DNA from: Symbiodinium sp. CCMP2592
Lineage: Eukaryota; Sar; Dinophyceae; Suessiales; Symbiodiniaceae
Direction: 5' to 3'
Assembly: GCA_905221615.1 (NCBI GenBank)
Contig: CAJNDT010004624.1
Coordinates: 532,291-596,290, forward strand
Length of the DNA: 64,000 bases
Position 1 is the first letter of the stretch; every line of letters starts with the position of its first letter. Below, piece after piece: positions 29,975 to 51,674 of this stretch. Made by a program: the position numbers and the translations under genes. The notes beneath the pieces are model-generated. The model did not search any database and was not told the DNA's origin. It saw only the letters and a list, made by a program, of their open reading frames with translations.

Positions 29975-30115
29975 TCCCGGGAAACGGGAAGCTTCACACT
30001 TGTGGAGGTACCCGTTCGGTACTCTCTACACAGGTGGAGGCAACCGGAATACCCGGTGTGCTTCACTCAGGTGAAGGTGACCGGAGTCTCTCCGGCACAC
30101 TTCACTCAGGTGAAG
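29975..30115 (+). promoter_or_regulatory. Structured 5' leader: chain of adjacent hairpins
   Basis: Between the LTR and gag, short hairpins follow one another almost without spacing. They are 29975-29989 (TCCCG/CGGGA), 29992-30007, 30008-30022 (GTACC/GGTAC), 30024-30039, 30043-30057 (ACCGG/CCGGT), 30061-30076 and 30100-30115. Four of them (29992, 30024, 30061, 30100) belong to the 16-nt hairpin family described below. The last two sit in a ~39-bp imperfect tandem repeat. A packaging, dimerisation or translation-control role is conceivable but not shown. Confidence 0.6.
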
Positions 30116-30161
30116 ATAACCGGAAGAGGTTTCTCCCGGGGCTCGATCCAAGAACAGCGCA

Positions 30162-30390
30162 ATGGCTAGCCACTCTGCGACTATCTTTGAGCATGAAGGA
30201 GGAGATGATGACTACCTCCTCCACGGAAATGAATCTTTCGCGACTAATCATCGTCATCTCAATGAATTACACCGTCTTTCAGCTTTCCAGCAGGTGACCA
30301 CCAAAGTACCTCCATCTTATGATGGCAGAAGCAGTTGGTTTGCCTATGAAGATGCGATCGATGACTGGTGTGACATTACTGAGCTAGACA
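30162..30390 (+). pseudogene. Copia-type Gag, 5' part (interrupted)
   Basis: The frame opens with MASHSATIFEHEGGDDD and reaches VPPSYDGRSSWFAYEDAIDD, WCDITELD. The segment PPSYDGRSSWFAYEDAIDDW is typical of the start of dinoflagellate Copia Gag. At 30390/30391 the nested element begins, and the frame runs about 20 codons into it before stopping at 30449. The continuation is at 37936 in the same frame. Gag would package the element RNA, but this copy cannot make intact Gag unless the insertion is removed. Confidence 0.7.
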
Positions 30391-49200: not shown

Positions 49201-51290
49201 AATGCAAGACTGTTCCGGATCCTGAGTACTACCAGGCCGCGAAGGATGCAGAGGACCAGAATGAGAACGCGTTCGACAAGATGGGCAAGGCAAAGGAAAA
49301 GATCGAGCTCGTTGATCTCGAAGAGTTCAAACATTTCCTTAAGCAGCTCACCGAAATCGAACGACAAAGCCCTATGCGGCTGCTCTGCAAGCAGTTGCAT
49401 GGATATGGCTATTCAGGCTTGTATCATACAGGACTTCGTGATCCTGATTACGAGCCCGTTCTCGCCTACAAGGTGCAGCATATGAGTTGGAGGGTAAATG
49501 TTCCGAACCACAAGGGACAGAAATACTCTCTTTCTATGGTGGATCTATTCAACCAACTCAACAAGATGGATCCCATCTATGAGCGTCGTCCCGACAAAAA
49601 GGACGTTGTTTTTCGTTCTGGGGACGTTCGTAGCACCTTGGACGACAAGCTCATGGGCAAGGCCTCTGACATCCGAGAATCAGCACTGGAGGTTATGGAA
49701 GCACTTCTTGATAAGCTGAAGTCCCTGGATGCAAGCGGCAATCCGGCAACTCGAGAAGAACTTTTGAATGCTATGCTTCACTACTTCTTGAGCACCGGAG
49801 TCGATGAAGAGGAGATCGGGGACCTCTCTCTTGAGAAGATGCCGAATCCTTATATTCATCGTTTTGGTCTGGCAGAGGACTCCAATGTCCCTATCTTCAC
49901 CAGCAAGACCAAGTATGCCGCGCTCATCCTCAATCTCGGCAACATGAGCAGGGGAAGAAAGCGTTCCGCTCCTAGCTCCGTTGCTAATCACATTGACTGG
50001 GACGATGCTACACCATCTAAAGGAGCCTTGATAAAATCGATTGCACAGTCGAAGACGCATTTGTTCATGCTCTGCGAAGCGGCTAAGATCGATGACTCCG
50101 AAGAGGCCTTCCTCAAGTCACGCGGTTGGCAATTCCTTCGTAACGAGTCCAAGGACCTGATGGTGGGAAGTCGTACAAATGGTGTCGGATCTTCGATCAC
50201 CCGTCTTGCCGGCTCCACTCTCAGTGGATATGCCCACGAGTCCCTTCCAATAACCTATATGGTCGCGGAAATCGTGTATGGCATGACGTTACCGACCGGT
50301 CTCCAGGGCAGTCGTGGTGATGTTCCAGATGAGTCACTGACCAAGGTCTTGGAGCGGGCTGGATCCGACCGGCTCAGAGTTTGTGTCTTCCACCTCCACA
50401 ACGACGCGGCGGCAGACAAGGTGGCGTTGGCTCATGAAGTGTTGGGCAACATGTTCATCGACTGCTTGCACTACCAAGTCGACCTCATCGGTGGCGACGC
50501 CAACATGGCCCTCTACCGGGCCACCGGCAGAAAGCAGGAGTCGATGGATATTCGTGGCGGGATGTACCAAAGCCTTCTCGACTACTTCTTGGAGGCCTGG
50601 TCAGAAAGCCCAAAGTGCCCACACTTCTGTTCGCCTCGTGCGAGACATGTGTCAGCAAACGCCATGTGGCTTCTGAAGCAGTATGAGGACACGCTGGGAA
50701 TGCCATACAAGGAAGCTAAGCAACCAGACTGGAATACTTTTCCTGGTTTGGATCCTGTTATGGCTACAGTCATGGAATGGGGACACAGCATGTCGGACGA
50801 TCAATGGGCGGAGTTTCCGTCTTCAAAGACTGAGTTCGACATCCATGTCTCTGAGTGGCTGTTAAACTCCACCAGCGCCGCGTACCTTCTCAACGATCGG
50901 GACTATGACGCTCACACTCCGCTCCTCATCGAGGTTCACGCGAACCAGTACTCTGGAGGCAGGATGAGAGCGCTCAACCGCAATCCCGACACCGTGAAGG
51001 AAGCCGCGGACAGAAGAAAAGAGAGACAGAAGCTGAACAAGGCGCGTGGTTCTGGTTCTACTGGTCCTGCAGCCGCACCACAGGGAGCAAGCTCTTCTCA
51101 GGAAGAGGCAGCTTCTGGTGCTAAAGCTTCTGGTTCTCAACGTCCTCAAGAACCCGCACAACCTCCTGGTGGCAAGGAAGGCGGCAAAGGAGGCAAGTCC
51201 TCCAAAGGAAAAGGCAAGGACGCCGACAAGGGCAAGTCCAAGGGCAAGACCAAGGACAAGTCCAAGGGCAAGGCCAAGGGCAAAAACTGA
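46263..51290 (+). CDS. Extra ORF: Tpt1/KptA-like 2'-phosphotransferase + EEP nuclease domains
   Basis: This ORF is 1675 codons without interruption. At residues of about 262-400 the order AVQGHS, GTIFHAS, SIRENGLKL, AIHLVYAGG, LFLTDNGVVL and DIPAMYL follows the ADP-ribosyltransferase fold of Tpt1/KptA, which removes the 2'-phosphate left by tRNA splicing using NAD. The Arg normally before A.QGHS is Ser here. Residues ~430-1190 are unrecognised and include acidic, Ser/Pro/Gln-rich linkers. Residues ~1215-1565 read as an endonuclease/exonuclease/phosphatase fold: LILNLGNMS, MLCEAA, VCVFHLHND, LIGGDANMALYR and DYDAHTPLLIEV supply the expected Asn, Glu, His, GDxN and DxHxP elements. The C-terminus is a Lys/Gly/Ser tail resembling the Gag tail. 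Neither domain is a normal Copia part. Position between RNase H and the LTR, strand and shared hairpins tie it to the element. Function is inferred, not shown. Confidence 0.7.
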   Translation: MAAAGPSMDTGRSSHEEAPFQVYWTPTTGCNFKIDVRTGVPDLSLYQQSASWANRRVLRTVGDGDGNASYPTRDRRAYPASAPVASLRIIPEGVPRFFRQQDTTAYFPQGEMAAVNILEGQLAFLSHVLLYEETHPGTHVLQRHLTWKFDFLRCFLGCLTGDELTGLDREIFNIHQMRHNHGGWAVKSSKQLSSLTRHDTRVTPGRYMEIPLETMMKHPIRPFEWEPKKFFAFLMANSKGRFNIWVAPVALQFERFFDFDFYVGVSAVQGHSRMPERISDVALGERLTLERCRQLGTIFHASDNSNYESIRENGLKLEATKAAWQRHRKAIHLVYAGGVISPGAGTVIKYGTYVFYAKLDYECYMSHGHNLFLTDNGVVLSYQDIPAMYLTHHYRPPHEQDPGGIRHERKQQSAGVGSSQEEGTSASASASASGGPPQGGVPGSSSDPMPSKPAPKKRPKTSQDAGQASPGSFSQEKVPTLDAAALQKLIRDNELKAERERQATASEGDTKYAYQSGDTVHGKIDAHKSQQQEELNEVLRKARTNPWHLFAHGKLHMVDSSGQPMLSTYGDALVQVTPWHTLTTSMRESLGGEYDWASWLQHPLSGYSLHFFLKAFEMGKLQGNYLVELDKKPKVYSNGYTSPWMNFKRHPGGLAQMLDDVSVAASNEFRPNLGNIGFDRPRDNDSRAKMPRTEDPDYSRKLAAHKAFLRERYVYEEVGYVREDFQMLVRVINEAYGVDFFSYIQRHAGDLEVRRKYTVRTPEGYCLYDSTLKQPFNGSYLLAVLEKVFAESDQRDFKSAFARKAKADLVAYEDLKAKKESELNELLTRPYDDIMIEEFIERLPCPQIEEIEEPPAATQMDTSEPSSGSTDLPQGKKVDPVKTEPTDVPMETDAPGSSPQGEVPGATVEPMETEATESSPQGEASEVKVEPDMHMGQEGGKSENIEMAEEGSPQGEESMPDISPEKDDESELHDQGIWGKCKTVPDPEYYQAAKDAEDQNENAFDKMGKAKEKIELVDLEEFKHFLKQLTEIERQSPMRLLCKQLHGYGYSGLYHTGLRDPDYEPVLAYKVQHMSWRVNVPNHKGQKYSLSMVDLFNQLNKMDPIYERRPDKKDVVFRSGDVRSTLDDKLMGKASDIRESALEVMEALLDKLKSLDASGNPATREELLNAMLHYFLSTGVDEEEIGDLSLEKMPNPYIHRFGLAEDSNVPIFTSKTKYAALILNLGNMSRGRKRSAPSSVANHIDWDDATPSKGALIKSIAQSKTHLFMLCEAAKIDDSEEAFLKSRGWQFLRNESKDLMVGSRTNGVGSSITRLAGSTLSGYAHESLPITYMVAEIVYGMTLPTGLQGSRGDVPDESLTKVLERAGSDRLRVCVFHLHNDAAADKVALAHEVLGNMFIDCLHYQVDLIGGDANMALYRATGRKQESMDIRGGMYQSLLDYFLEAWSESPKCPHFCSPRARHVSANAMWLLKQYEDTLGMPYKEAKQPDWNTFPGLDPVMATVMEWGHSMSDDQWAEFPSSKTEFDIHVSEWLLNSTSAAYLLNDRDYDAHTPLLIEVHANQYSGGRMRALNRNPDTVKEAADRRKERQKLNKARGSGSTGPAAAPQGASSSQEEAASGAKASGSQRPQEPAQPPGGKEGGKGGKSSKGKGKDADKGKSKGKTKDKSKGKAKGKN
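46298..49130 (+). repeat. 16-nt hairpin family: 10 copies in the third ORF
   Basis: 46298-46313 CTCCTCTCATGAGGAG. 46580-46595 CTTCCCTCAGGGGGAG (one T/G pair). 47513-47528 CTCTTCTCAGGAAGAG. 47567-47582 CCCTCCACAGGGAGGG followed by GTACC. 47678-47693 CTTCTCTCAGGAGAAG followed by GTACC. 48382-48397 CTTTCCTCAGGGAAAG. 48875-48890 CTTGCCACAGGGCAAG. 48953-48968 CTCTCCACAGGGAGAG followed by GTACC. 49016-49031 CTCTCCACAGGGAGAG. 49115-49130 CTCACCACAGGGTGAG. Most lie in the low-complexity linkers. The copy at 48382 lies in ordinary sequence and in another reading phase. Confidence 0.9.
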
Positions 51291-51674
51291 CTAGGTTCAG
51301 ATGAGGGCGAGGACGCAGACGTTGACGTTCCTGACGAAGACGTTGGTCCTGGCCCAGCATCCTTTGGTGATAGACCGTGGTTCCCATTTCACCTACAGCT
51401 TCATCACTGGAGTTTGGAGAGATGGTACTACCCACACTACCAGCTGCTTCATCCAGACGACAGTCCTCGAACTCGTCGAAGGGTTGAGCAGTACAACCAG
51501 AGGATGATGAACCATGGTCCGTTGGAAGATGTGGAGTGAATGTTTCACGGAATGCTTCTTTCATAAGAAGGTATCCAGTTTGAGCATTCGCCATTTCATA
51601 GGAAGATGCTTTTCTCATGAAGAGGTACTTCCTCAGAGACCTTGTCAAAAAGAAGATACTTATCTCAGGATAAG
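51092..51674 (+). repeat. 16-nt hairpin family: 4 copies at the end of the third ORF and in the 3' region
   Basis: 51092-51107 CTCTTCTCAGGAAGAG is coding. 51555-51570 CTTCTTTCATAAGAAG (followed by GTATCC), 51609-51624 CTTTTCTCATGAAGAG (one T/G pair, followed by GTACTTCC) and 51659-51674 CTTATCTCAGGATAAG (followed by ATACTTC) are in non-coding sequence. A decayed copy may lie near 51641. Confidence 0.85.

Follow-up and report, generated by a model that had tools for sequence, protein, structure and literature searches.

The closest described counterparts of the arrays reported here are the dispersed packaging signals of single-stranded RNA viruses such as MS2, satellite tobacco necrosis virus (STNV) and parechovirus, in which many degenerate stem-loops of one design recur across the sense genome with free stems and a constrained motif (PMC6281560, PMC4751978). 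A comparable arrangement is found in a Copia-type long terminal repeat (LTR) retrotransposon of the dinoflagellate Symbiodinium sp. CCMP2592, located in the 64,000-nucleotide stretch analysed here (contig CAJNDT010004624.1, positions 532,291 to 596,290; hereafter the window). This element contains 30 hairpins of one design (type A), every one on the coding strand, distributed among the 5' leader (4), the protease open reading frame (ORF; 3), pol (6), ORF3 (13) and the 3' untranslated region (UTR; 4). With about even confidence, we interpret these covarying sense-strand hairpins as sites where an RNA-binding protein made by the element itself, probably Gag, would recognise the element's own RNA at many points, gathering and packaging it. 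Stem-loops with shared motifs also occur in a related element, L001 (15 hairpins), and as dense arrays of a second design (type B) in other Copia families of the genome, and covariation and synonymous-codon shuffles show conservation as RNA structure rather than as protein or codon usage. In contrast to the viral signals, the host is an LTR retrotransposon, the stems covary strongly, families of one genome have different designs, and type A includes a homopurine 3 x 3 internal loop. The psi packaging region is a compact 5' region of distinct stems. The four hairpins that follow the 5' LTR and precede the likely gag start resemble retroviral and Ty1/Copia 5' psi regions (PMC8096270), but the repetition of one hairpin design 30 times to the 3' end is unlike psi. 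At title and abstract level, with preprints and most subscription papers outside the scope, we found no published description of such hairpins in retrotransposons.

The first-pass annotation had reported at least 27 copies of the plan C-N5-[TA]CA[GT]-N5'-G. The window holds 21 exact copies of this plan, every one within the Copia element and on the + strand; the - strand has none. Four further copies have the same loop with one G-U pair (30024, 46434, 46580 and 51609), and a strict descriptor or a covariance model added five others (29992, 44414, 49823, 51769 and 41994), raising the count to 30 and widening the feature from 29992..51674 to approximately 29984-51792. The single orientation and the spread over leader, protease, pol, ORF3 and 3' region are borne out, as are the variant loops, ACTT at 29992 and TCTT at 44414 and 49823. 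The loop reads [TA]CA[GT] in 25 of the 29 copies scored, a set that lacks one of the final 30. The nested 7.5-kb element indeed lacks family members: its TCAG-loop palindrome at 35709 has no C...G closing pair, and a - strand match at 32614 has mixed mismatches. In the remaining ~49 kb of the window, nested element included, the strict descriptor returns two + and two - strand matches. The hairpins are as follows, with the means by which each was identified.

29984..30015, + strand: hairpin 1, 5' leader, ACTT loop (descriptor, covariance model)
30016..30047, + strand: hairpin 2, 5' leader (one G-U copy, covariance model)
30053..30084, + strand: hairpin 3, 5' leader (exact plan, descriptor, covariance model)
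30092..30123, + strand: hairpin 4, 5' leader (exact plan, covariance model)
39692..39723, + strand: hairpin 5, protease ORF (exact plan, descriptor, covariance model)
40124..40155, + strand: hairpin 6, protease ORF (exact plan, descriptor, covariance model)
40175..40206, + strand: hairpin 7, protease ORF (exact plan, descriptor, covariance model)
41484..41515, + strand: hairpin 8, pol (exact plan, descriptor, covariance model)
41986..42017, + strand: hairpin 9, pol, two G-U pairs (window model E 4.4e-6; L001 model E 1e-4)
42963..42994, + strand: hairpin 10, pol (exact plan, descriptor, covariance model)
43047..43078, + strand: hairpin 11, pol (exact plan, descriptor, covariance model)
44373..44404, + strand: hairpin 12, pol (exact plan, descriptor, covariance model)
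44406..44437, + strand: hairpin 13, pol, TCTT loop (descriptor, covariance model)
46290..46321, + strand: hairpin 14, ORF3 (exact plan, descriptor, covariance model)
46426..46457, + strand: hairpin 15, ORF3, GNA/ANG internal loop, codon phase 1 (one G-U copy, descriptor, covariance model)
46572..46603, + strand: hairpin 16, ORF3, GNA/ANG internal loop (one G-U copy, descriptor, covariance model)
47505..47536, + strand: hairpin 17, ORF3 (exact plan, descriptor, covariance model)
47559..47590, + strand: hairpin 18, ORF3 (exact plan, descriptor, covariance model)
47670..47701, + strand: hairpin 19, ORF3, T-A to C-G swap in sister copies (exact plan, descriptor, covariance model)
48374..48405, + strand: hairpin 20, ORF3, codon phase 2 (exact plan, descriptor, covariance model)
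48867..48898, + strand: hairpin 21, ORF3, GNA/ANG internal loop, one outer mismatch (exact plan, covariance model)
48945..48976, + strand: hairpin 22, ORF3, in 63-nt tandem repeat (exact plan, covariance model)
49008..49039, + strand: hairpin 23, ORF3, second repeat unit (exact plan, covariance model)
49107..49138, + strand: hairpin 24, ORF3 (exact plan, descriptor, covariance model)
49815..49846, + strand: hairpin 25, ORF3, TCTT loop, C.A mismatch that is C-G in sister copy L024 (descriptor, covariance model)
51084..51115, + strand: hairpin 26, ORF3 (exact plan, descriptor, covariance model)
51547..51578, + strand: hairpin 27, 3' UTR (exact plan, descriptor, covariance model)
51601..51632, + strand: hairpin 28, 3' UTR (one G-U copy, descriptor, covariance model)
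51651..51682, + strand: hairpin 29, 3' UTR (exact plan, descriptor, covariance model)
51761..51792, + strand: hairpin 30, 3' UTR, GCCT loop (descriptor, covariance model)

The type A design comprises a 6-bp inner stem, a 4-nt loop that is mostly NCAN, a 3 x 3 internal loop and an outer stem, the last two overlooked in the first-pass annotation. The GTACC or GCACC previously noticed directly after the hairpins is real, but it constitutes the 3' half of the internal loop and of the outer stem, paired with the 5' flank. Pairing at outer-stem offsets 4, 5 and 6 is seen in 23, 25 and 24 of the 25 copies, against between-copy permutation means of 8.7, 16.7 and 8.7; these 25 copies (21 exact, four with one G-U) were chosen on the inner stem and loop, the outer pairing having been noticed by eye beforehand. 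The internal loop is 5'-ANG/5'-GNA in 21 of 29 copies, GNA/ANG in four, ANA/ANA in two, GNG/GNG in one and irregular in one. Its end mismatches consist of the same purine, A.A or G.G, in 28 and 29 of the 29 copies (permutation means 18.7 and 20.7), and these homopurine pairs swap together between copies. Fifteen of the 29 also have identical middle bases (permutation mean 6.9). The strict descriptor permits mixed purines, yet all 26 matches in the element are same-purine at both ends. Arms vary freely, and nothing is common between copies beyond the structure. Rfam covariance models gave no match at E up to 1 in 29700-52300.

The strict descriptor finds 26 matches on the + strand of the element and none on the - strand, whereas 100 dinucleotide shuffles, the control that the first-pass annotation had called for, yield a mean of 0.29 and a maximum of 2. 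Shuffling synonymous codons, which keeps the protein and its codon usage and exchanges synonymous codons only, reduces the 3, 5 and 12 matches in the protease ORF, pol and ORF3 to means of 0.18, 0.18 and 0.40 (maxima 2, 2 and 3); the ORF total is 20 against 0.76 for the summed means. In an alignment of 29 copies, standard pairs fill 93.7% of pair cells (65.1% when shuffled), 98 cells show a change in both partners (25.0 on average when shuffled), and covariation scores 0.789 (0.201 when shuffled, at most 0.205 with slid partners); the alignment rows were partly chosen for pairing, so these covariation figures are not independent of that choice. A single inner-stem mismatch, for which the descriptor allowed any combination, occurs in 7 of the 26 matches as six G-U and one C.A, a preference that a working form made of sense RNA would lead one to expect.

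Other copies of the element in the same genome (1.1 Gb, 5383 contigs) provide a second view of the array. One exact 26-mer of the element occurs at 73 places genome-wide, its reversed control at none, and eight loci cut from these places contain 4 to 8 strict matches each, arranged as in ORF3. The 3' halves of four other copies (L022-L025) have 18, 18, 19 and 19 strict matches, all on the coding strand with none on the other, three of them not of the family type. Five 5' halves (L026-L030), from the same four copies and one more, give 58 window-model matches below E 0.01, again all on the coding strand. The presence of the hairpins in other element copies, previously proposed as a check, is thus seen in five of them, together with compensatory changes. 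At 47678, a T-A pair is replaced by C-G in sister copies, and at 46298 two outer pairs are gained. The C.A mismatch at 49823 is C-G in L024, where one internal-loop end also changes from G.G to A.A. An outer-stem G-C becomes A-U at 48953, with a less certain mapping because the site sits in a tandem repeat. Pairs are broken at 48875 (L007 and L003), 49016 (L008), 51555 (L017, L020 and L025) and 46298 (L023), as expected of decaying copies.

Named protein relatives, such as one of Symbiodinium natans, point to a Symbiodinium-like dinoflagellate. In twelve protein relatives of ORF3, with 48 to 66% identity, peptides able to encode a hairpin recur at the corresponding positions. Of the 89 peptides aligned at 9 of the 13 ORF3 sites, 72 are compatible with a stem that is fully paired and includes no more than one G-U, compared with 2.7% (497/18227) of all six-residue windows and 5.9% (200/3403) of linker-like windows in the same proteins; the comparison covered these nine sites, leaving aside 47678, 46434, 48382, 49823 and the pol and protease sites, and as a best case over codons it is supportive only. 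Several peptides change in the coupled manner that complementary codons require (FSQEK to SPSGE; SSQEE to FPQGK; LPQGK to SPSGE, SSFEE or PPLGG), with SPQEE in P0001, SPSRE in P0009 and SAPAE in P0007 as uncoupled exceptions. Sites 49016 and 51092 are mostly lost, with fully paired stems in 2 of 10 and 1 of 8 relatives. A search of viral contigs for DNA of the relatives confirmed none.

L001 (WTIT01000146.1) is a 14.5-kb contig filed in a Euryarchaeota metagenome-assembled genome. It contains the greater part of a Copia element whose pol is 48% identical to that of the window element and in which rve scores only 15.2 bits. The contig is most likely a stray eukaryotic one, probably introduced by binning contamination. 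The strict descriptor gives 11 matches on its + strand and none on its - strand. All 11 loops read NNCA, all 22 internal-loop end mismatches are same-purine, and 7 of the 11 internal loops are GNA/ANG; single inner-stem mismatches are G-U in five of seven cases and never A.C. Fifteen L001 hairpins picked by hand are 92.1% paired. The window model recovers eight of these with E values from 0.0015 to 1.2, each on the + strand, alongside three chance-level matches outside the element (E 2.8 to 4.3). Conversely, the L001 model with E up to 5 detects 26 of the 30 hairpins of the window element, and six more matches fall elsewhere in the window (E 1.1 to 4.6). The L001 hairpins occupy three codon phases. 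Synonymous shuffling leaves means of 0.57 (maximum 3) for four observed matches in gag-pol, 0.06 (maximum 1) for two in the last ORF and 0.02 for none in the Tpt1 ORF. Counted across the Symbiodinium genome, a pattern of the L001-type internal loop plus one arm pair occurs at one place, against one in the control.

Two further Copia families of the genome, L032 and L033, were found by a search with P0132 and have pol proteins that are 91% alike. They contain one off-type and no strict type A match, respectively, and instead display type B hairpins with 5-bp stems and 4-nt loops that are mostly NNCA or NNCC. Five-bp stems with any 4-nt loop number 64 in L032 and 47 in L033, against 9.4 and 5.4 in shuffles, while other loop lengths (3 to 8) account for 5 to 25. 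Hairpins with NNC[AC] loops are strongly strand-biased, with sense and opposite-strand counts of 40/3 in L032 and 25/0 in L033. The two ends of another copy (L034 and L035) give 15/0 and 19/1; their array begins with a hairpin before gag, and the preceding 1.7 kb has no hairpins with such loops. A copy on the - strand (L036) has 23 on that strand and two on the opposite one. Observed against synonymous-shuffle means, the counts are 14/0.8, 13/1.2, 28/2.7, 14/0.9 and 13/0.7, in all three codon phases; pol and ORF3 of the window element have 0 and 1 type B hairpins, against means of 0.9 each. Across 27 NNC sites of L032 aligned with L033, 115 of 135 Watson-Crick pairs persist, eight more are G-U, and 20 pairs differ in a single partner. 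Among pairs with both partners altered, pairing is retained in 5 of 5 cases counted from L032 and 6 of 10 from L033 (2 of 3 and 0 of 3 for stems with other loops). The compensatory evidence for type B is modest, while the excess, loop and strand evidence is strong. Palindromes of 5 bp with 4-nt loops are mildly in excess outside Copia as well (37 against 28.3, 18 against 9.0 and 19 against 7.5), and NNC[AC] hairpins occur in background sequence (9 + and 2 - in 29.7 kb; 2 + and 5 - in 11.7 kb; 2 + and 0 - in the nested element); the type B claim thus draws on the combination of density, loop letters, strand and synonymous control. The MS2 operator hairpin has an ANYA tetraloop and a bulged A two pairs below it. 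Several loops common in type B (AACA, ACCA, AGCA) resemble this tetraloop, as do the RNCA loops of many L001 hairpins, but the stems are of 5 or 6 bp and have no bulged A two pairs below, and no homology is claimed.

Taken together, the stem covariation, shuffle excess, synonymous control, compensatory changes in copies and separate lineage designs indicate that the type A and type B arrays are under RNA-level selection, lineage by lineage. The covariation between copies, the sister-copy changes and the synonymous-codon control support the first-pass suggestion that selection acts on a structure and not on a fixed sequence. Its notion of a family confined to one retroelement is too narrow, considering that other copies of the family have the array, L001 a variant, and two other Copia families another design. 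We lean, by a little more than even, toward a broader proposal in which dinoflagellate Copia elements may use a whole-genome RNA recognition code: each lineage would repeat its own design 15 to 40 or more times, have its own reader protein and sort its RNA from others in one nucleus, and the code of one lineage would include a covarying symmetric A.A/N.N/G.G internal loop, for which we found no described counterpart.

The first-pass annotation proposed no mechanism. In the packaging interpretation, the sense RNA would be the working form of the hairpins, and a protein would read the apical loop together with the homopurine internal loop. This reader would be encoded by the element itself, and packaging of the right RNA would be the outcome. 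A repeated sense-strand hairpin with free stems and lineage-specific loop and internal-loop letters is the trace expected of a specific RNA-binding partner that co-evolves with it, and co-resident families whose loops and stems follow separate designs could each select their own RNA. Hairpins lie in the 5' leader and 3' UTR, four in each, as well as in the ORFs, which supports this interpretation. The C-terminal part of Gag is, by eye, rich in Arg, Lys and Gly in the window element, L001 and L034. The CCHC zinc knuckle of retroviral-type Gag nucleocapsid regions (C-X2-C-X3-5-H-X3-5-C) is absent from four window and four L001 ORFs, a search that did not extend to the window gag start before the nested element. 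These two features make Gag the likeliest candidate for the reader. Stem IIB of the Rev response element (RRE) of human immunodeficiency virus 1 (HIV-1) has a purine-rich internal loop read by the Arg-rich Rev protein. The type A internal loop likewise contains purine-purine pairs and offers a possible site for a basic protein segment, but differs from RRE IIB in its symmetric 3 x 3 form, its same-base A.A and G.G pairs and its many copies.

Several points weigh against the packaging interpretation. No type A hairpin lies in gag and few lie in the catalytic domains, a pattern that coding limits alone may explain, and only a few Copia lineages were sampled as DNA. Dispersed hairpins could equally serve export, translation or stability, and the element's Tpt1/KptA-like RNA enzyme fits an RNA-processing role as well. 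Loop differences among relatives fit co-evolution but also relaxed constraint. Furthermore, type A models weakly match type B elements (best E 0.0088 and 0.039), so that the two designs may not be wholly separate.

Among the alternatives, it is unlikely but credible that the hairpins attract an RNA-binding protein of the host, and not of the element, so that the element RNA is exported from the nucleus, translated or localised. Sense-strand copies in the 5' leader, ORFs and 3' UTR would suit such a reader, but the loop and stem design differs between families in one genome, which is easier to reconcile with element-encoded partners, and 30 to 40 or more sites seem beyond what a host factor would need. 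We consider it improbable that the hairpins are RNA-processing sites tied to the Tpt1/KptA-like domain, at which the RNA would be cleaved, repaired or modified, leaving or removing a 2'-phosphate or ADP-ribose. PF01885-like domains do lie downstream of pol in the window family, in L001 and, weakly, in one type B copy (L033). However, the matches in the window and L033 fall below the cut-off, the L032 ORF has none, and we know of no Tpt1 enzyme that reads hairpins. The hairpins are also in-frame in ORFs, with hairpin-capable peptides kept at the same sites, which implies that excision is not needed. Little probability likewise attaches to compaction or protection of the RNA against silencing or decay, or an easing of reverse transcription, with no specific reader involved. 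The density of the arrays, from about one hairpin per 500 nt in type A (30 in 14.9 kb) to about one per 120-220 nt in type B, accords with such a role, which would nevertheless leave both the loop letters (NCAN, NNCA, NNC[AC]) and the homopurine internal loop free to vary.

Three further candidates are rejected. Action as DNA palindromes (cruciforms, recombinase or replication sites) would draw on the perfect palindromic arms and the mild palindrome excess outside Copia, but is very improbable given one orientation only, strand-specific loop letters and, among single inner mismatches, a sense-strand excess of G-U over A.C (window, 6 to 1; L001, 5 to 0). Repeated insertion of mobile mini-palindromes, the propagation that the first-pass annotation had allowed for, is scarcely more than a formal option: a 63-nt tandem repeat with one hairpin is present as two units in the window and in varying number elsewhere, but the copies share a structure and no sequence, their arms differ freely, and relatives at ~50% protein identity share the sites. 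Rickettsia palindromic elements are mobile, ~100-150 nt long, share sequence and are inserted in-frame. The window hairpins resemble them in lying inside ORFs in a preferred phase, but share structure only. A repeated peptide motif (an S-x-P/S-Q-G/E-K/E linker) whose codons happen to fold would account for the single codon phase of 18 of the 20 strict ORF matches, but has negligible probability, as eight copies are non-coding, type B occupies all three phases, the peptides are as unlike as GTHVP and FPQGK, and synonymous shuffling abolishes the hairpins, an outcome that refutes it.

If the packaging interpretation is correct, dispersed packaging-type RNA codes extend beyond single-stranded RNA viruses to LTR retrotransposons, and copies, lineages and compensatory changes would suffice to read such a code from sequence. 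Co-resident families with different designs would make Gag's choice of its own RNA testable in vitro, and structural work would gain a new RNA module in the covarying homopurine internal loop. A further caution would be that RNA structure can dictate peptide linkers in ORFs of this kind.

The host element and its surroundings are laid out as follows.

29776..29941, + strand: 5' LTR, TG...CA, 166 bp (repeat search; 166/166 identical to 52023-52188)
30388..37936, + strand: nested DIRS/PAT-like element with split direct repeats, inside the Copia gag (repeats 30388-30531/37554-37697 and 37335-37557/37714-37936)
39023..40342, + strand: protease-region ORF, D-L-G-C-T-R by eye (37% to L001 gag-pol 575-973)
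40227..46100, + strand: integrase, reverse transcriptase and RNase H ORF of Copia type (PF07727, 59.1 bits; integrase and RNase H by eye)
46263..51290, + strand: ORF3, 1675 residues, with Tpt1/KptA-like domain and Lys/Gly-rich tail (PF01885, 25.6 bits, cut-off 26)
52023..52188, + strand: 3' LTR (repeat search; identical to the 5' LTR)

Assignment to Copia follows from the RVT_2 reverse transcriptase match (PF07727, 59.1 bits, profile search), the protease-integrase-reverse transcriptase order, with protease and integrase placed by eye, and the two LTRs; no target duplication was seen. Its gag start is likely, by eye, at 30163, before the nested element, which has a weak RVT_1 match (17.2 bits) and a first ORF read by eye as a tyrosine recombinase. 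PF01885 is borne by 11 of 12 close ORF3 relatives. Downstream of pol, PF01885-like domains score 25.6 bits in the window, 38.2 bits in L001:8861-10030 and 18 bits (E 0.0032) in L033:3993-5522, and the profile search returned no match in the corresponding L032 ORF. The domain may represent an RNA 2'-phosphotransferase- or ADP-ribosyltransferase-like accessory gene of Copia elements. The C-terminal part of ORF3 (46263-51290) has, by eye, an endonuclease/exonuclease/phosphatase-like stretch, IGGDANMALYR, for which no Pfam match was returned. The 63-nt tandem unit lies in ORF3 at 48926-49051, with one hairpin per unit, two units in the window and a number that differs among other family copies. 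Elsewhere in the window, positions 22178-23763 contain approximately 28 tandem copies of a 56-bp unit.

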